Shown here: positions 1,421-10,633 of the stretch, piece by piece
Layout of the letters: every line of letters begins with the position of its first letter
Numbering within the stretch: position 1 is the first letter of the stretch
Source: Rhodospirillales bacterium
GTDB lineage: Bacteria > Pseudomonadota > Alphaproteobacteria > Rhodospirillales > Casp-alpha2
NCBI GenBank assembly: GCA_018664265.1
Contig: JABJOR010000510.1
Span: 1-15,682, forward strand
DNA length: 15,682 nucleotides
Direction: 5' to 3'
Program-made: the position numbers and the translations under genes
The notes under the pieces: model-generated
The model's input: only the letters and a program-made list of their open reading frames with translations
What the model was told of the DNA's origin: nothing
Database searches by the model: none

Positions 1421-2389
1421 ATGCACATAAAAACACACGACGAAATACATAAAGAAAACAAAACTGAAATTCATAGCCATAAACTCCGTACATGCTGCTG
1501 GGTATCTCTGGCTGGTGCCTTTATTTCGGCGCTTGGAATTAGCTCTGCTGTCATGGCGCAAAGCTCGCCAGTAATAGTGGATCTTTCCGTGCTTGATGAT
1601 AATGGAATGGCGCGATCAACCATGCCATCCTCTTCCTATGAGGGTTATACCACGCAAGGCAGCCTTTTGATGCCTGGTGCAACCCCACCGAAATCAACGT
1701 ATTACGGTCCGGCATTAACGAATGAAGCCATTAGCGCAGTAAAACCAATTATCTCGGCACCAGTATCAACAGTGACATCAATGCCAACAGCGTCATTGAC
1801 TGCATCCGACACAGTTGCAGCACCTGAACCAGAGCCCGTTCCAGTTGCTCCTGTTGTTGCAGTACTGGAGCCCACTTCCACAGTGACACCTTCCGTAGAA
1901 GCTCCGGAGGCTCCGGAAGCAATCGCACTTGAGCCTGAGACAGTATCTGCGCCCCCTCCTCTGCCTGACCCCGTTACGCAAACGGCTCCAGGTGTTGAAC
2001 CAGCGAGTGAAACGGTACCAGAAGCACAGGAAGTTGAAACAGCAGCAGTCACCACAGGGCCACCTTCTATTGAGCCCGGTCGTGCAATGCAGATTGTCTA
2101 CACCAAGTCAGATGCAGACATTCCAGCAGAAAGTGAAGACGCTTTAAGCGCTGTTGCTGAAGCCATCAAAGCCAATGAAGATTTAAGAGTACAATTAATG
2201 GCATTTGCAGGCGGAAGCGATCTTTCCTCCAGCAAGGCTCGGCGCCTGTCACTTTCACGGGCATTATCCGTCCGATCATACTTCATTGGTCAGGGTGTAC
2301 GCTCGACGCGAATTGATGTCCGCGCACTGGGCGACAAGACTGATGAAAATCCAATCAACCGGGTAGACATCAACATTACGCAACGATGA
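1421..2389 (+). CDS. Secreted OmpA-like protein with long Pro/Ala/Glu linker
   Basis: 322 aa. After a basic, His-rich N-terminus comes a hydrophobic stretch (about 24-46) ending VMA-Q, a plausible Sec signal peptide cut near residue 47. Residues about 100-225 are very rich in Pro, Ala, Val, Glu and Thr, as in spacers that cross the periplasm. The last 100 residues look like an OmpA domain: AFAGGSDLSSSKARRLSLSRA followed by a final NRVDINIT, which keep the expected Asp and Arg positions of peptidoglycan binding. The stop codon overlaps the start of the next gene (ATGA), so it is tightly coupled to the MotA/TolQ-like gene and the MotB-like gene. The likely role is a periplasmic accessory of that envelope machine (inference). 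The N-terminus before the signal is unusually long, and the ribosome binding site is weak, so the start is less certain than the gene. Confidence 0.85.
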   Translation: MHIKTHDEIHKENKTEIHSHKLRTCCWVSLAGAFISALGISSAVMAQSSPVIVDLSVLDDNGMARSTMPSSSYEGYTTQGSLLMPGATPPKSTYYGPALTNEAISAVKPIISAPVSTVTSMPTASLTASDTVAAPEPEPVPVAPVVAVLEPTSTVTPSVEAPEAPEAIALEPETVSAPPPLPDPVTQTAPGVEPASETVPEAQEVETAAVTTGPPSIEPGRAMQIVYTKSDADIPAESEDALSAVAEAIKANEDLRVQLMAFAGGSDLSSSKARRLSLSRALSVRSYFIGQGVRSTRIDVRALGDKTDENPINRVDINITQR

Positions 2390-3549
2390 AGCGTCCCCAA
2401 CGATACTTAATCCGTATGATCATGTTCGTGGCAGCTGTGGCTGCCCTTGGTGTATTTCTATTTCCACCTCTAAAATCAGCCTTTATGGCAAATGCCCCGC
2501 TCAACGGATTAATTGTCGGGGTTTTGCTGATTGGTATTGGCTATAATTTCCGTCAAGTTCTTGTCCTTTATACCGAAGTAGACTGGATCGAAGATTTTCG
2601 CCGTGATCGCCTGGTTGGCAGACTAACGCCTCGATTGCTGGCCTCCATGGCAACCATGCTTGGTGATAGCAGTTCGACCTTCCGACTTTCAGCACTTTCC
2701 ATGCGATCCGTGCTTGATGGAATTGCCTCACGGCTCGATGAATCTCGCGATATTTCCCGCTACACAATAGGCTTGCTGGTGTTTTTGGGACTGCTCGGTA
2801 CATTTTGGGGATTGCTCGATACCGTCAGCTCTATTCGTGGCGTCATCAGCAGCCTGTCAATAGGCAGTGACGGAGACATCGCAAATGTCTTTGCCAGCCT
2901 GAAACAGGGCCTGGAAGAACCTCTGGGCGGTATGGGAACAGCATTCAGCTCATCCCTGCTTGGCCTTGCAGGCTCGCTTATTCTGGGCTTTCTAGACCTT
3001 CAGGCAGGCCAGGCACAAAATCGCTTTTTCAATGACCTCGAAGAATGGTTATCCAGTGTTACACGGTTGTCCAGCGGTTCCATCTCATCTGATGGTGGTG
3101 ACCAGTCTGTTCCGGCCTATGTTCAGGCCCTGCTGGAACAAACGGCTGACAGTCTTGAAAATCTGCAAAGAACACTGACAAAAGGCGAAGAAAGCCGTAT
3201 TGCTGTCAATGGCAGTCTGCATCAAATGACCGAACAAATCGGCACCCTGAGCGATCACATGCGTACCGAACAGGCTATTATGCGCTCCATGGCGGAAAGC
3301 CAGGTCACCCTGAACGAAGCTTTGCGAAAAATAAGCGATAACACAGCCATGCAACCAGGTGGATCAACAGGGCCCATCGAAAATGACGCAACACGCTCTC
3401 ATATCCGTAACCTTGATCTTCAGATGGGACGCTTGGTTGAAGAACTAGCAACAGGGCGCAATGAAGTCCTCCAGCAAGTACGCAGCGAAATCAAGCTTCT
3501 TGCCAGAACAATTGCGGCCCTCGTTGATGACTCCAGACCTCAGCGGTAG
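2386..3549 (+). CDS. MotA/TolQ/ExbB-family proton-channel protein
   Basis: 387 aa inner-membrane protein. Hydrophobic segments lie near residues 7-26, 38-55, 126-150 and 180-205. The motif GLLVFLGLLGTFWGLLDTV followed by GMGTAFSSSLLGLAGSLILG is the conserved TM core of MotA/TolQ/ExbB channel subunits; a soluble domain sits between the second and third segments, and about 180 C-terminal residues are cytoplasmic, helical and partly coiled coil. It would pair with the MotB-like product downstream to turn proton flow into work on the envelope. Its ATG overlaps the stop of the preceding OmpA-like gene and it ends 15 bases before the MotB-like gene, so the three form one operon. It is not a flagellar motA by context, as no flagellar genes are near; TolQ is also less likely because no tolR/A/B follows. 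Confidence 0.9.
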   Translation: MKRPQRYLIRMIMFVAAVAALGVFLFPPLKSAFMANAPLNGLIVGVLLIGIGYNFRQVLVLYTEVDWIEDFRRDRLVGRLTPRLLASMATMLGDSSSTFRLSALSMRSVLDGIASRLDESRDISRYTIGLLVFLGLLGTFWGLLDTVSSIRGVISSLSIGSDGDIANVFASLKQGLEEPLGGMGTAFSSSLLGLAGSLILGFLDLQAGQAQNRFFNDLEEWLSSVTRLSSGSISSDGGDQSVPAYVQALLEQTADSLENLQRTLTKGEESRIAVNGSLHQMTEQIGTLSDHMRTEQAIMRSMAESQVTLNEALRKISDNTAMQPGGSTGPIENDATRSHIRNLDLQMGRLVEELATGRNEVLQQVRSEIKLLARTIAALVDDSRPQR

Positions 3550-3564
3550 TAGGCGGAAAGCGGT

Positions 3565-4884
3565 ATGAATTCAATCGCTCGCAGATCCCAACGCAATAAC
3601 AACATTTGGCCCGGCTTTGTCGATGCACTGGCGACGTTGTTAATGGTCATTATCTTTTTGCTGATGATTTTTGTTATTGCCCAGTTCTTCCTCAATGAAG
3701 CAATTTCGGGGCGCGACAAGGCATTGGATAATCTGAACAGCCAGATCAGCGAGCTATCGGAAATGCTCTCCATGGAACGTCTGCAAAGCGATGATTTACG
3801 CTCTGATGTGGCGAAGATTACGGATCAACTGCAGGCCTCCCTGCTTGCCCAGGATGAACTCTCCACAACTATTCGCGCTCTCAGCACCCGAACAGAAAGC
3901 GCAGAAGACAAAGTTAAAAGCCTCACTGACAAGCTCACTGGTGAGCGCGAGAAGAGCCTACAACAGGTTAAGGAAATATCGACGCTGGCTGATAAGGTAA
4001 GCGCACTGATTGCCCTGCGTGACCAACTGGAAACCCAGGTAAGCGATTTGTTAAAACGCTCAGAGACTGCCGAGCAGACATTGACAGTGCGTGATGAAAC
4101 CATTTCTGAGCAAATCAGCGAGATGGCGGCTCTGGCATTAAATATTAAATCTCTCACTGCCCTTAAAAAACAATTGGAAGCGGAAATATCAAAACTCGCG
4201 AGCCGTACAGAAGAAACCGAAGACCAATTGCTTGCAGAAATAGAACTATCCAGCAGTGCGCGCGCCGAGGTTGCTTTGCTTACTCAACAGATGGAAGCAT
4301 TACGCATCCAAATGGCACAGATATCGGCTGCTTTGGAAGCCTCAGAAGAGTTTAATCGTGAGCAAAAAGCTGAAATTCATAGTCTTGGACAGCGCTTGAA
4401 TGCAGCATTGGCAACCAAGGTTATGCAACTGAGTAAATACCGTTCTGAATTCTTTGGCCGTCTGCGTGAAATTCTTGGAAACACCGCTGGAATACAAATT
4501 GTCGGCGACCGTTTTGTCTTACAAAGCGAATTGCTGTTTGAACAAGGTTCTGCCGATATCGGTGAAACCGGTAAAAAACAAATGGAACATCTGGCAGCCA
4601 CATTAAAAGATCTGGCGACACGTATCCCTGATGATATTGATTGGGTTTTACGCATAGATGGACATACGGACACCGTTCCAATTTATAATTTCCGCTTTCC
4701 CTCAAACTGGGAGCTTTCCGCAGCCCGGGCCATATCTGTGGTTAAGTACCTGATCGCAGCAGGATTACCGCCAAGGCATCTGGCGGCAACCGGCTTTGGT
4801 GAATTCCAGCCGTTGGCTCTTGGTAAAGACCCAGAAACCTTGCGCCTCAACAGACGTATTGAATTGAAGCTGACACAGCGCTAG
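3565..4884 (+). CDS. MotB-like protein: one TM, long coiled coil, OmpA peptidoglycan-binding domain
   Basis: 439 aa. Near the N-terminus, WPGFVDALATLLMVIIFLL gives a single TM (about 17-45) with D20 where MotB/ZorB/TolR proteins hold the proton-carrying Asp. Residues about 45-290 are a continuous Glu/Leu/Lys/Gln-rich coiled coil in heptad style. The C-terminal 120 residues are an OmpA domain (LLFEQGSADI, then RIDGHTDTVPI, then LNRRIELKL) that should grip peptidoglycan. It is the stator partner of the preceding MotA/TolQ-like protein, anchored to the wall. The start at 3565 follows GGCGGAAAG (3551-3559). No terminator is visible before the MFS gene at 4936. The coiled coil is far longer than in flagellar MotB, which suggests a reach across the periplasm or a dimerising stalk. 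The specific process driven is unknown. Confidence 0.9.
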   Translation: MNSIARRSQRNNNIWPGFVDALATLLMVIIFLLMIFVIAQFFLNEAISGRDKALDNLNSQISELSEMLSMERLQSDDLRSDVAKITDQLQASLLAQDELSTTIRALSTRTESAEDKVKSLTDKLTGEREKSLQQVKEISTLADKVSALIALRDQLETQVSDLLKRSETAEQTLTVRDETISEQISEMAALALNIKSLTALKKQLEAEISKLASRTEETEDQLLAEIELSSSARAEVALLTQQMEALRIQMAQISAALEASEEFNREQKAEIHSLGQRLNAALATKVMQLSKYRSEFFGRLREILGNTAGIQIVGDRFVLQSELLFEQGSADIGETGKKQMEHLAATLKDLATRIPDDIDWVLRIDGHTDTVPIYNFRFPSNWELSAARAISVVKYLIAAGLPPRHLAATGFGEFQPLALGKDPETLRLNRRIELKLTQR

Positions 4885-6657: not shown

Positions 6658-8505
6658 ATGGCTAGGCAAATAAATTTTGAAGTGCAGGTTATGCAAGGGG
6701 GGCGATGGAGCATCCACGCCAGATACCCTGCTACGGGCCATGACGAATCTATAGAAGATGCAAAACAAGTAGAAAATTCCGGCATCGGAAAAGTTCGTGT
6801 CCTGCGCGATATTTACGATTCAGAAGCTGGCACCAGCGTTGAGCGTGTAATCTATGCTTCTCTGGCGGCAGGTGGGACTGGCGAGACTGGCAAGCCGCAA
6901 GGCTCAGATGGTGCAGGAGGGTCTGACGATTGGGGTGGTGGAGGCTCCGGTGGAGGCTCCGGCGGTGGCTCCGGTGGCGGTGGTGATGATTTTGATGACT
7001 TCGATTTTGGTGATGATGATTTCGGGGATGATGAGTTCTTTGACGAAGACGAGCGCCGGGAAGCCAAACGCACTAAAAAGGCCGCTAAAAGAAAAGCTAA
7101 TCGCAAACAAACGACCATGCCCATCCTGATCAGCAAACTGCTGATGATCGTTTTGGTGGGTATTGCCATTGGTGTTGCAGTGATAAATGTTTCCAGCCCT
7201 TATATTACAAACCTCAATCTGTTTGGCACGAAGCTGGTTGGCCATAACCGGGACAATGCGCTTATTATCATTTTCCTGACGACCTTTACGGTTACGTCAC
7301 TGTCCATGGCATCAATGTTACTGAGAAATACAGGGCTCAAGGCATCTCAACGCAGAGCCAGATCCGCGGCACCCCGAAAGTCGGCAAATCAGGCCAAGCC
7401 TGCCAAGACAGCTCAAGAACAAATTGACAGTGAAGCACAGGATCTGAAAGAAGACATTGTTGAATCTGATCAAATGGGGGAGTTCCGCAAAGATGCTGCT
7501 GAACGCAGTGATGAGGAAAATGAAGACTCTGATGCAGATGACGACGCCGAAAGCGAAGAAGAACCACCTGAAGCTTCAATACCGACTGGCATGTCACCCC
7601 ATGCGGAACAACAAAAAGCCAGTATGACACAATTTATCAATAAGGCCATGACAGGTGTTGGCAAAGACACTCAAGCCATGTCGAATTATGAAAAATTTGG
7701 CATGAGCCTGTTCATAGCCGGATCCTGCGAGGTTCTTGCTGCTAAAAAAGAACTGAATGAAAACGATATTTCCAAGATTATGGCAGAAAGTGTACAGAAG
7801 ATGGGCTTCAAGAAAGTACACGCCAAGGGTTTTGCCGAAAAGCATGCGGAATATCTGGTTCAGGATGCCACCTATATGAATATGTTTCAGGCTGGTCGAA
7901 ATGCCATGAGCACGTATCTGGATGACGAATCCAGTATCCCAGGAAATATGGCTAATGCGATCTCAACCTGGAACAAGCCCAAGAAAAAAGAAGCCGACAG
8001 TGGCCCTATTACTGTGTTGTTCACAGACATTGCAGGCTCTACAGCCATGACACAGCAATACGGTGATGCCGGAGCCCAGGATATCGTAAGAGCGCATAAC
8101 AAGATTGTACGCAATGCCCTGACTATGTGTTCTGGCAAGGAAATCAAGCATACAGGTGATGGCATCATGGCATCTTTTGCCAAAACCTCTGACAGCATTG
8201 ATGCTTCTATACAGATACAACAAGAAACCAAGAAATATACAGCAGCGACACCGGACAGGCCATTGCACATTAAAATAGGCGTCAATGCAGGCGAGCCTAT
8301 TGCAGAGGATAATGACCTGTTTGGAACAACTGTTCAGATGTCGGCCCGCATTGTAGACAAGGCTCAGGCAGATCAAATTTTTGTCTCGGAAATTATCAAG
8401 GGCATCAGTGCAGGAAAACACTACAGTTTTGTTAATCGAGGTACCTATCAGATGAAGGGCTTCGATCAGGACCCGGTCCTCTACGAAGTCATGTGGGATG
8501 AATAA
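6658..8505 (+). CDS. Membrane-bound class III adenylate cyclase with Gly/Asp/Lys tract
   Basis: 615 aa; makes cyclic AMP (inferred). In order: a small N-terminal domain (1-72); a Gly/Ser linker (about 80-112, encoded by near-tandem 12-base repeats near 6940-6985); an acidic Asp/Phe patch (113-135); a basic Lys/Arg patch (136-150); two TM segments (about 152-180 and 200-222); a charged, acidic stretch (about 235-305); a helical domain (about 310-435); and a C-terminal cyclase domain (447-613). Catalytic residues: metal Asp457 in FTDIAGST and Asp501 in KHTGDG; ATP-choosing pair Lys497 and Asp553 (in DLFG); transition-state Arg564. The usual Asn four residues before that Arg is Gln560. Start ATG 6658 has a poor ribosome binding site. 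Both termini should be cytoplasmic, with a short loop between the TMs. The gene stands alone. Confidence 0.88.
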   Translation: MARQINFEVQVMQGGRWSIHARYPATGHDESIEDAKQVENSGIGKVRVLRDIYDSEAGTSVERVIYASLAAGGTGETGKPQGSDGAGGSDDWGGGGSGGGSGGGSGGGGDDFDDFDFGDDDFGDDEFFDEDERREAKRTKKAAKRKANRKQTTMPILISKLLMIVLVGIAIGVAVINVSSPYITNLNLFGTKLVGHNRDNALIIIFLTTFTVTSLSMASMLLRNTGLKASQRRARSAAPRKSANQAKPAKTAQEQIDSEAQDLKEDIVESDQMGEFRKDAAERSDEENEDSDADDDAESEEEPPEASIPTGMSPHAEQQKASMTQFINKAMTGVGKDTQAMSNYEKFGMSLFIAGSCEVLAAKKELNENDISKIMAESVQKMGFKKVHAKGFAEKHAEYLVQDATYMNMFQAGRNAMSTYLDDESSIPGNMANAISTWNKPKKKEADSGPITVLFTDIAGSTAMTQQYGDAGAQDIVRAHNKIVRNALTMCSGKEIKHTGDGIMASFAKTSDSIDASIQIQQETKKYTAATPDRPLHIKIGVNAGEPIAEDNDLFGTTVQMSARIVDKAQADQIFVSEIIKGISAGKHYSFVNRGTYQMKGFDQDPVLYEVMWDE

Positions 8506-8551: not shown

Positions 8552-8580
8552 CTTGCGGACACTTCACAACAAACATACAT
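8552..8580 (+). promoter_or_regulatory. Possible heat-shock (RpoH-type) promoter of hsp20
   Basis: CTTGCGG (8552-8558) and CATACAT (8574-8580) with a 15-base spacer resemble the CTTG...CCCATNT pattern of sigma32 promoters. The transcript would start near 8586, exactly where the structured leader begins. The match is partial. Confidence 0.4.
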
Positions 8581-8585
8581 CCCCT

Positions 8586-8699
8586 TCAGACAGAGCATTC
8601 AATGCTGCAGAGCAGGTTGAAAGTCTGTCTGACATTACCATGATGACCTGGCCATTTGGCAGGCATCTTAACCCATGTAGCTCTGAAGAGGATATGGCT
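8586..8699 (+). promoter_or_regulatory. ROSE-like RNA thermometer leader of hsp20
   Basis: The leader can fold into three successive units. Unit 1: a perfect 9-bp stem TCAGACAGA (8586-8594) with TCTGTCTGA (8624-8632), enclosing two small hairpins (GCAT/ATGC 8595-8605; CTGC/GCAG 8605-8615). Unit 2: CCTG...CAGG (8647-8663) with an inner CC/GG and a bulged G. Unit 3: CCATGT (8673-8678) with ATATGG (8692-8697), then CTC-TGAA-GAG (8681-8690), which buries the ribosome binding site AAGAGGA (8686-8692). The strand opposite the site reads UAGCU, one base from the UYGCU hallmark of ROSE elements, which control small heat-shock genes in alphaproteobacteria. The fold was done by eye. Confidence 0.6.
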
Positions 8700-9164
8700 A
8701 TGCACAACATCGATTTTTCACCCCTGTTTCGTCACTCAGTTGGTTTTGACCGTATGCAAAAAATGCTCGATACGGCAACACATATGGATTCGTCTTCACA
8801 ATCTTATCCGCCTTACAACATCGAAGCCTTCAGCGAAAACAACTACGCTATTTCACTGGCCGTGGCCGGATTTGGGCCACAGGACCTTGATGTAACGGTG
8901 ACGGAAAACACCCTGATTATTTCAGGCCAAGCACAAGACAGTAAAGACAATCCGCAATACTTGCACCGAGGCATAGCAAGGCGCGCATTCGAGCGCCGAT
9001 TCCAGCTCGCCGATACAATTAAAGTTACCGGCAGTTCTCTGGATAACGGCATGCTGAATATTGATCTTGTCCGCGAAATTCCAGAATCACAAAAACCCCG
9101 TAAAATTGAAATTGCCAGTCCGGCACATTCAACACAACAAATTGAAACAAGCCAAGCAGCTTGA
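8700..9164 (+). CDS. Small heat-shock protein, Hsp20/IbpA type
   Basis: 154 aa ATP-independent holdase chaperone that binds unfolding proteins. The N-terminus MHNIDFSPLFRHSVGFDRM closely matches the IbpA-type start (MRNFDLSPLYRSAIGFDRL in E. coli). The alpha-crystallin domain runs from about 37 (YPPYNIEAFSENNYAISLAVAGF) to about 130, with a GMLNIDLVREIP end strand, and a short Gln/Ser/Ala-rich tail follows. The frame can be extended upstream to a TTG at 8553, but that part falls in the structured leader and promoter. ATG 8700 has AAGAGGA at the right distance (7 bases); ATG 8694 is too close. It has its own promoter, leader and terminator, so it is a single-gene heat-shock unit. Confidence 0.92.
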   Translation: MHNIDFSPLFRHSVGFDRMQKMLDTATHMDSSSQSYPPYNIEAFSENNYAISLAVAGFGPQDLDVTVTENTLIISGQAQDSKDNPQYLHRGIARRAFERRFQLADTIKVTGSSLDNGMLNIDLVREIPESQKPRKIEIASPAHSTQQIETSQAA

Positions 9165-9330: not shown

Positions 9331-9355
9331 GCTTCAATTTATATGAAATTGAAGC
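9331..9355. repeat. 10-bp inverted repeat directly after the small RNA terminator
   Basis: GCTTCAATTT (9331-9340) and AAATTGAAGC (9346-9355) are exact reverse complements around a 5-base loop. On the minus strand it follows the T run of the small RNA terminator and is itself followed by TTTATTATG, so it may act as a back-up terminator. The gene-free stretch 9165-9518 otherwise holds the hsp20 terminator, the small RNA and its promoter. Confidence 0.55.
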
Positions 9356-9431
9356 AAAAAAACCGCCCCAACCAGGGGCGGCAAGTTTAACAGGGAGGCG
9401 TCGAAGATAAGTAGGTTTTAACCTACTCACC
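9356..9431 (-). ncRNA. Candidate trans-acting small RNA with CCUCCCU loop, ~76 nt
   Basis: Reading the minus strand from about 9431: a 5' hairpin GUAGGUU-AA-AACCUAC (9426-9411); an unpaired stretch of about 28 bases with GCCUCCCUG (9399-9391), complementary to ribosome binding sites; then the stem CCGCCCC-UGGUU-GGGGCGG (9381-9363) and seven U (9362-9356). Hairpin, C-rich single strand, intrinsic terminator is the build of Hfq-type small RNAs. Length and the CCUCCCU element recall the alphaproteobacterial alpha-r8/MmgR (Rfam 'suhB') group as I remember it; I could not check this. There is no sensible reading frame in it. A promoter with a CtrA box lies immediately upstream. Confidence 0.6.
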
Positions 9432-9436
9432 TACCA

Positions 9437-9468
9437 AGTATACATAGATATTCTTAATATTCTGTTAA
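9437..9468 (-). promoter_or_regulatory. CtrA-type promoter of the small RNA (full TTAA-N7-TTAA box)
   Basis: A full CtrA box TTAACAGAATATTAA (minus strand, 9468-9454) is followed by a -10 element TATACT (9442-9437). With a start near 9431 the box spans about -38 to -24, replacing the -35, as at CtrA-activated promoters. There is no ordinary -35 hexamer. The box is symmetric in its half-sites; rightwards it would face the 3' end of the DUF1192 gene, where no + strand gene begins. Confidence 0.6.
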
Positions 9469-9518: not shown

Positions 9519-9698
9519 TTACTTAAAGAAAGAGTCCGCATTTGATCGGGCTCCATCTTTCAAAACAATTGCATCTTTAGTGCGTTGAATTTCTTCTTCC
9601 AACTCAGCTATATACTCATTTAGAGCTTCAACGGAAAGGATCTCCAGATTCTTGGTTTCTTTCTTTTTCGGTGCAGGTTCCAAGTCATCAGTGTCCAT
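9519..9698 (-). CDS. DUF1192 family small protein
   Basis: 59 aa, the usual size for this alphaproteobacterial family of unknown function. The N-terminus MDTDDLEP precedes a basic PKKKE patch, then the conserved SVEALNEYIAELEEEIQRTKDAI helix, probably a coiled coil, and the family-typical end SADSFFK. A longer frame from ATG 9752 is possible, but GGGAG on the minus strand (9709-9705) sits 6 bases before ATG 9698 (3 before ATG 9701), and the conserved part starts there. The gene is divergent from trcR and ends 50 bases before the CtrA box of the small RNA. Confidence 0.85.
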   Translation of the reverse strand: MDTDDLEPAPKKKETKNLEILSVEALNEYIAELEEEIQRTKDAIVLKDGARSNADSFFK

Positions 9699-9842
9699 CA
9701 TCCACTCCCATTCAATCTGACTGAAATTGTTCTTAAAATTCAATTTTTGCATTCTAAATCATGTTTCAAGGAAAAAACCATCGATTTTACCCGGATAGGG
9801 CATGATTAAATTGAATTTTTACAACTTTTTTTGATAAGTCCT

Positions 9843-9949: not shown

Positions 9950-10633
9950 ATGACGCGTCCTTTGATGCCCAAAGCCACGGCAGTCTGGCTTTTAGATAAT
10001 ACAACACTAACATTCGAGCAGATTGCAGCCTTTTGCGAACTCCACATGCTGGAAATTCAGGCAATTGCCGATGATGAAGTTGCCGTTGGTATGCAGGGTC
10101 TGGATCCTGTACGCGGCGGTGAACTCGAACTTGAAGAAATCAAACGTTGTGAAGCTGATCCGGCTGCACGTCTTGATATGACCCAAAACGCACAAGACCA
10201 TGCAAAACAGCAGAAAAAAAAGAAAGCCCGTTATACACCAGTGTCCAAACGTCAGGACCGCCCGGACGCCATTGCATGGCTATTAAAAAATTACCCGGAA
10301 TTAACCGATGCACAAATCGGCAAGTTGATCGGCACAACAAAACCGACAATCAATTCTATCCGCGACCGTAGCCATTGGAACACACCAAATATTACGGCTC
10401 AAAATCCTGTAGGTCTGGGACTGTGCACAAGCACCGAGCTGGAAAAAGTCATTACGCTGGCCCGTGCACGCGCAGGTATTGTATCAGCCCCCGCAGAAGA
10501 GGCTCAGGCCGAGGCTCCTGCTGCTGAAACAGTAGAAGAGCCACAAAACATTGATGCCGCTTCTGTTTTCGCTAATTATCCAAAGCCCGAATCTGAAACA
10601 GAATCAGAAGCAGAATCGGAAAAAAGCGAATAA
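9950..10633 (+). CDS. trcR: DUF1013 family regulator, TrcR-like (cell cycle)
   Basis: 227 aa. The start MTRPLMPKATAVWLLDNT is the family-typical N-terminus; DUF1013 proteins are annotated as cell-cycle transcriptional regulator TrcR in alphaproteobacteria. Two similar helix-turn-helix-like segments are visible: residues 11-41 (AVWLLDN-TLTFEQI...IQAIAD) and 107-139 (AIAWLLKN..LTDAQI...INSIRD), joined by an acidic part and a basic KKKKARY patch near 90. After the conserved SHWNTPNI block comes a disordered Ala/Pro/Glu/Ser tail (about 175-227). Start ATG 9950 has GAGGAA 9 bases ahead. It is probably a DNA-binding protein; target promoters are not shown by the sequence. The CtrA-box small RNA and DUF1192 lie divergently next door. 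Confidence 0.9.
   Translation: MTRPLMPKATAVWLLDNTTLTFEQIAAFCELHMLEIQAIADDEVAVGMQGLDPVRGGELELEEIKRCEADPAARLDMTQNAQDHAKQQKKKKARYTPVSKRQDRPDAIAWLLKNYPELTDAQIGKLIGTTKPTINSIRDRSHWNTPNITAQNPVGLGLCTSTELEKVITLARARAGIVSAPAEEAQAEAPAAETVEEPQNIDAASVFANYPKPESETESEAESEKSE

Follow-up and report, generated by a model that had tools for sequence, protein, structure and literature searches.

The 15,682-nucleotide contig JABJOR010000510.1 (assembly GCA_018664265.1; hereafter the window) of a Rhodospirillales bacterium probably carries, on its minus strand, a stand-alone gene for a trans-acting small RNA (sRNA) that is activated by the cell-cycle regulator CtrA, is related to the sRNA BjrC1505 (Rfam RF02356), and masks Shine–Dalgarno sequences. 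That this is a real sRNA gene, as predicted from its sequence, with homology to BjrC1505 is very likely, and its control by CtrA is likely; silencing by Shine–Dalgarno masking is about an even call, and we have low confidence in any named mRNA target. Homology and promoter are well supported, and the targets are not.

Read from the sequence, the locus has promoter-like signals followed by a predicted hairpin, linker, and terminator, has counterparts in the same place in relatives, and lies in a genome with a CtrA gene. The order on the minus strand is CtrA box, −10 element, 5′ hairpin, linker, and terminator. A perfect full box (TTAA-N7-TTAA; TTAACAGAATATTAA, 9454-9468), conserved in kin, is followed by a TATACT −10 element (9437-9442) whose first base lies 11 nt past the box. 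The RNA predicted from its fold and from our model R2 is ∼76 nt long (9356-9431); with its predicted 5′ end at about 9431, the box spans about −23 to −37. An 11-bp 5′ hairpin (9406-9431), predicted by folding and showing changes on both sides of its pairs in our alignment of kin (A2), precedes a predicted open linker of 23 nt (9383-9405) that carries GCCUCCCUG. Within the linker, CCTCCCTG occupies 9391-9398, and the conserved CCUCCCUG at these same positions is the predicted pairing region, judged by conservation and unpaired probability. The intrinsic terminator is a predicted stem-loop with 8 pairs and a 5-nt loop (9362-9382), with a tract of seven U (9356-9362), the first of which lies inside the stem. 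The 76-nt RNA has a predicted fold energy of −32.1 kcal/mol (z = −4.3), and only 1 of 200 shuffles was equally stable. A first-pass annotation, made from the letters alone, had described box, TATACT, hairpin, unpaired stretch, and seven-U terminator in this order; sequence and fold bear this out, as they do its proposal of a complete sRNA gene that has its own promoter-like signals, with a CtrA box placed at −35.

Conservation of the CtrA box

By itself the box means little, because it is frequent in shuffles: 0.31 are expected per window, and one or more turn up in 51 of 200 window shuffles. What decides is therefore how well it is kept in relatives. BLAST in 41 genomes (our genome included here and in the counts that follow, unless stated) gave matches in 19, and from 28 inspected loci we kept 21 copies, leaving out two sibling-like loci (L019 and L020), a second copy in genome G003 (L021), and four with the motif missing or altered (L027, L033, L035, and L040). 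For none of these seven is a DUF1192 or Hsp20 match listed, and L019–L021 have no box at one mismatch or fewer within 140 nt. Among the 21 copies, the box is perfect in 19 and has at most one mismatch in all. The motif TANNNT begins exactly 11 nt past the box in 14 of them, the sequence in between being variable; from the retention of the box and this constant step we conclude that it sits over the −35 region of a promoter with a fixed layout. Almost no variation is seen in the linker core, whose CUCCCUGU has a mean predicted unpaired probability of 0.72 across the copies (range 0.32–0.99; 0.83 in the window).

The genomic anchor of these copies is a gene for a DUF1192 protein (PF06698; 55.3 bits with Pfam in the window, 9519-9752, minus strand), the adjacent upstream neighbor of the sRNA. 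By tblastn, the flanks hold DUF1192 in 19 of the 21 copies, close by, upstream, and on the same strand, together with an Hsp20 gene in 18 and trcR in 5. The first-pass annotation had placed the RNA beside trcR and given weight to that position; the adjacent gene is instead DUF1192, and the linkage to trcR is not widely conserved.

We used DUF1192 as an anchor for a class-wide test that is independent of the promoter of the RNA. The gene is present in 85 of 153 class genomes, and a copy was called where GCCTCCCTGT (at most one mismatch) and a T-run lay on the same strand no more than 1 kb downstream. By this rule 17 of the 85 DUF1192 loci carry the RNA, compared to 1 of 85 in an antisense control of the same stretches. 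A box with at most one mismatch accompanies 16 of these 17 copies, perfect in 7 (15 and 6 of 16 when the window locus is removed), at −70 to −92 from the linker core; the background in 65-nt pieces is 112/7268 (1.5%) and, for perfect boxes, 22/7268. Box conservation in relatives is thus far above background, and the conservation that the first-pass annotation had proposed as a check is there.

A scan of named genomes by the linker alone returned at least 118 stretches at no fewer than 80 loci; setting aside 4 loci too near an edge leaves 76 scorable among the matches listed, to which the following counts refer. By title these are largely Hyphomicrobiales, plus Sneathiella (Sneathiellales). A perfect box lies within 140 nt in 40 of the 76 (background 176/12182), and in 72 the stretch from −96 to −62 relative to the core contains a box with no more than one mismatch; of the four loci that miss it, three belong to records labeled Bacteroides, Planctomycetota, and Chitinophagaceae. 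DUF1192 was found within 1.5 kb in 39 of the 76, in 21 of them together with a perfect box.

Relationship to BjrC1505 and to other small RNAs

An Rfam scan found no match in the window at gathering score; at a loose threshold the best score was for BjrC1505, a weak match of 29.4 bits (E = 9.2e-4 in 411 bases, full model). This closest known RNA, which one paper of the literature searched names in a table (PMC6337395, seen in part), does not appear in the first-pass annotation. Across the 41 genomes, RF02356 has weak matches in 30 and none over its cut-off. The likeness extends to a GACGCCUCCCUGUU linker, a 5′ hairpin, and a terminator. Moreover, two DUF1192-adjacent copies score over the BjrC1505 cut-off (L052 at 73.2 bits and L060 at 56.2 bits; a third, L056, reaches 44.7 bits), and both share with the window RNA the CtrA box as well as the DUF1192 neighbor: the box of L052 is perfect, and L060, with linker GACGCCUCACUG, has a box with one mismatch. 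The distance from box to linker core does differ, at −70 in the window and about −84 to −90 in most of the named copies listed.

To separate this family from RNAs with a similar core, we rely on model R2, for which 28 of the 30 copies extracted were used, none of them among the 21 (L124 and L153 are cut inside the terminator). R2 recognizes the window RNA at 42.2 bits (E = 3.3e-10) and scores 18 of the 21 copies at 27 bits or more; sibling-type RNAs, as well as L072 and L021, receive 14–25 bits, and L020 is unmatched. A model built from the 21 copies themselves (R1) was rejected as a family test, since it gives L042, which has neither box nor DUF1192, 49.2 bits and the true kin L052 only 45.4 bits; for the same reason its matches in 206 of 387 class genomes are an upper bound only. 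Some R1 matches in other alphaproteobacteria stand a few hundred bases apart in a tandem-like manner (G181:C1:3175672-3176244, G359:C6:79516-79793, and G091:C32:58266-58596).

The 18 pairs of alignment A2, spread over three helices, are 98.6% paired, versus 39–59% in slid versions. Eight pairs are changed on both sides (mean of shuffles 2.1; 0 of 500 as high), a count that benefits from the use of this alignment to derive the structure as well. Such changes affect 4 of 5 pairs in the hairpin adjoining the linker, and 3 of 7 terminator pairs show compensatory changes. The first-pass annotation had held that lack of covariation together with a non-conserved box would speak against its proposal; both covariation and box conservation are seen. 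With a possible extra weak stem (A2 columns 59-64 with 71-76), the linker core would be displayed as a loop. This stem is well paired, but 3 of the 6 pairs are invariant in A2; with 37 mixed sequences, 54 of 2000 shuffles did equally well. From the separation achieved by R2 and the DUF1192-linked copies over the Rfam cut-off, we conclude that the window RNA is, by sequence comparison, a divergent relative of BjrC1505.

Inspection of 34 loci revealed two main kinds of CCUCCCUG RNA. The first has GACGCCUCCCUG or a near variant in its linker and, in most cases, DUF1192 and the box; the sibling kind typically has ACGUCUCCCAGACGUGAAGCCUCCCUGUU, with no DUF1192 in the fetched flanks and no box (at most one mismatch, within 120 nt) in any of 15. 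The genome of the window also encodes one sibling, L071 (G000:C280:70-164), whose hairpin contains CTCCCAGACG, and a third, weaker RNA, L072 (G000:C172:2958-3046; 31.9 bits). Both are sRNA-like, with a CUCCCUGUU core and terminator. No CtrA box within 140 nt of either is perfect, and the one at −88 from CTCCCTG in L072 carries a single mismatch. The sibling L042 scores 35.3 bits with the suhB model (cut-off 41).

Several described RNAs resemble this one in part. Likeness to the alphaR8/MmgR group (suhB, RF00519) had been noted in the first-pass annotation, and the build is indeed alike, with an anti-Shine–Dalgarno-like C-rich pairing region, a terminator, and small size in both alphaR8 (MmgR, SisA-D) and the window RNA; kinship is not supported, with RF00519 scoring 16.9 bits versus a gathering score of 41. 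According to the accessible part of PMC12559287, alphaR8 genes adjoin the gene for N-formylglutamate amidohydrolase (FGase) in most species, though not all, and SisA-D have no common promoter motif, whereas the window RNA neighbors DUF1192 and Hsp20 and has a conserved CtrA box. SorX (RF02784) likewise has the CCUCCCUGUU core ahead of its terminator, and membership there was rejected at 21.1 bits versus a cut-off of 46.6. Cell-cycle RNAs have been described before, as seen in parts of the reports on CcnA (PMC8959179) and EcpR1 (PMC4414408). EcpR1 (SmelC291) was rejected as a match; its loop motif UCCGCCGCAUCU, as given in the part of PMC4414408 available, is absent from the sequence. CcnA of Caulobacter crescentus is 182 nt long, lies at the replication origin, and uses a CCCC loop on the ctrA and gcrA leaders, a pairing that is unsupported for the window RNA; the likeness would be one of analogy only. 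Closer is SmelC671/sm84 of Sinorhizobium meliloti (ReC71 in Rhizobium etli), given as 100 nt in the accessible text of PMC2873474 and as about 80 and 110 nt in that of PMC2573895, and also treated in PMC7143759 (seen in part). In both it (in the available portion of PMC3927594) and the window RNA, CUCCCUGU is single-stranded between hairpin and terminator, and the two likely belong to the same family, as compared by description and not by sequence. The sm84 passages of PMC2573895 give a predicted sigma70-dependent promoter and do not mention CtrA. More generally, we found no statement of CtrA control of BjrC1505-type RNAs in the accessible text of the open literature searched (supplementary files excluded).

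Proposed mechanism and alternative explanations

The genome encodes CtrA (L370; NCBIfam NF045991, 407.6 bits, cut-off 350), whose best Protein Data Bank match by sequence is the cell cycle response regulator CtrA, and also GcrA. A CtrA box over the −35 region is in an activating position. We infer that phosphorylated CtrA would bind the box and turn on the sRNA gene during the phase of the cell cycle in which CtrA is active, activation being expected from the placement of the box over −35. The leader of the ctrA gene itself (L370, upstream of 1069) contains TTAATAAACATTAA, with two TTAA separated by 6 and not 7 bases, shortly before the start codon. The linker, which the first-pass annotation had rightly taken to be anti-Shine–Dalgarno-like, is complementary to Shine–Dalgarno sequences of the CAGGGAGG type; it would pair with these and block translation of the mRNAs concerned, probably with Hfq. 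The sibling sRNAs carry the same CCUCCCUGUU, so the promoter, not the pairing region, would give the window RNA its special role. Candidate targets would be nutrient-uptake and catabolic genes, overlapping those of the siblings.

The pattern CAGGGAGG-N4-9-ATG occurs 43 times in six genomes, compared to 12 times when read backwards. Genes with a CAGGGAGG site encode, among others, periplasmic binding proteins, TRAP and TctC transporters, BKACE, alanine dehydrogenase, and M20 peptidases. Thirty target-search loci were fetched, and 11 of 16 scanned products are transporter parts or resemble catabolic enzymes (three further scanned products came from the search of the window's own genome and fall outside those 16); we do not count this as evidence. 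The low duplex energies of the chosen candidates are circular, since the candidates were picked by complementarity. Pairing of the genome's trcR, DUF1192, and Hsp20 leaders is no better than that of shuffles. According to the available part of PMC12559287, the anti-Shine–Dalgarno sRNA SisA represses transporter-type genes (e.g. a TonB-dependent receptor).

Several results weigh against a CtrA-activated, Shine–Dalgarno-masking relative of BjrC1505. On the side of targets, the non-complementary control AAGGGAGG occurs 44 times where CAGGGAGG occurs 43 times, so that nothing points to selection for target sites and the target set is a guess. The gcrA gene, tried as a target, was rejected (among 22 leaders, 3 of them with a poorly resolved start, a single one matches with one mismatch or fewer); the genome's own ctrA and gcrA leaders pair no better than shuffles. 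On the side of the family, the window RNA is under the BjrC1505 gathering score (29.4 versus 50 bits) and has one 5′ hairpin, where L099 and, by eye, much of A2 have two hairpins 5′ of the linker; on these grounds we call it a divergent variant and not a filed BjrC1505 member. Three of the 21 copies (L022, L018, and L013) fall in the sibling score range with R2, and 68 of the 85 DUF1192 loci have no recognized copy. On the side of the promoter, 32 of the 72 boxes among the named matches listed carry one mismatch.

This last figure, together with the unremarkable status of a single box in the window and the fact that CtrA binding is a prediction, is what favors the alternative that the RNA is a real member of the BjrC1505 family whose box is unused by CtrA here, or through which CtrA represses. 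We consider this unlikely, given a box kept with at most one change in every one of the 21 copies, its constant distance to the −10 element in 14, its activating position over −35, and a genome that encodes CtrA. That the hairpin, linker, and terminator might form the 3′ untranslated region of the DUF1192 mRNA, with no gene of their own, is suggested by the close upstream gene on the same strand in nearly all copies; it is made very improbable by the box and −10 element standing between DUF1192 and the RNA, by a linker far more conserved than a terminator requires, and by the named matches listed in which no DUF1192 was found within 1.5 kb (37 of 76), of which 19 still have a perfect box. In ten of these 37 loci the upstream sequence is shorter than 1.5 kb; among the other 27, the perfect box is present in 13.

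The two remaining alternatives concern what the RNA is and does. An alphaR8-type (MmgR, SisA) anti-Shine–Dalgarno RNA with a new promoter would account for the similar build and for the CCUCCCUGUU core common to the sibling L071 and others; it is hardly probable at all in view of the low RF00519 score, the GACGCCUCCCUG linker context and DUF1192 neighborhood, which mark a different family, and the separation of the window RNA with R2 from sibling-type RNAs, which may themselves be alphaR8. A sponge or decoy that pairs mainly with another RNA is a distinctly unlikely option, in spite of the absence of target-site enrichment and the confinement of AACAGGGAGG, in the window's own genome (78% complete), to two sRNA genes. 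Caulobacter is known to have a sponge for sibling sRNAs, yet SisA, which has an anti-Shine–Dalgarno motif, has mRNAs as targets (both from the accessible part of PMC12559287), and a partner RNA was neither looked for nor seen. We favor a CtrA-activated sRNA that may mask Shine–Dalgarno sequences.

Genomic neighborhood and significance

The sRNA gene faces a convergent Hsp20-family gene (PF00011 by Pfam; 8553-9164, plus strand), and beyond DUF1192 lies the second neighbor trcR (PF06242, which Pfam names transcriptional cell cycle regulator TrcR; 9950-10633, plus strand). Directly 3′ of the sRNA terminator, on the minus strand, is a second, A+T-rich, terminator-like hairpin (9331-9355). The Hsp20 gene is adjoined, in several relatives as well as here, by a gene for a protein with an adenylate/guanylate cyclase domain (6658-8505; 615 aa), the domain following a long Gly/Asp-rich low-complexity part. 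Farther away (2386-4884) is a gene pair whose products, one of 387 aa that matches no Pfam family and one with an OmpA domain, are by eye reminiscent of a MotA/MotB-like pair.

The sRNA family itself is known; the link of BjrC1505-type RNA to CtrA, seen in several orders, is one that we have not found reported, nor was a function for BjrC1505 or sm84 seen in the literature searched. A box at the same promoter position in the order of the window, in Hyphomicrobiales, and in Sneathiellales would provide all members of the family with a shared input and place them in the cell cycle in a way that can be tested. If this is true, CtrA control of gene expression includes an ancient RNA branch in addition to CcnA, an RNA investigated mostly in Caulobacter. 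It is possible, though we propose it only tentatively, that BjrC1505, the window RNA, and probably sm84 represent one ancient alphaproteobacterial sRNA in the core CtrA regulon, through which CtrA would damp the translation of genes for nutrient uptake and catabolism at a particular cell-cycle phase or in a particular cell type, with siblings of the same core doing likewise under other conditions.
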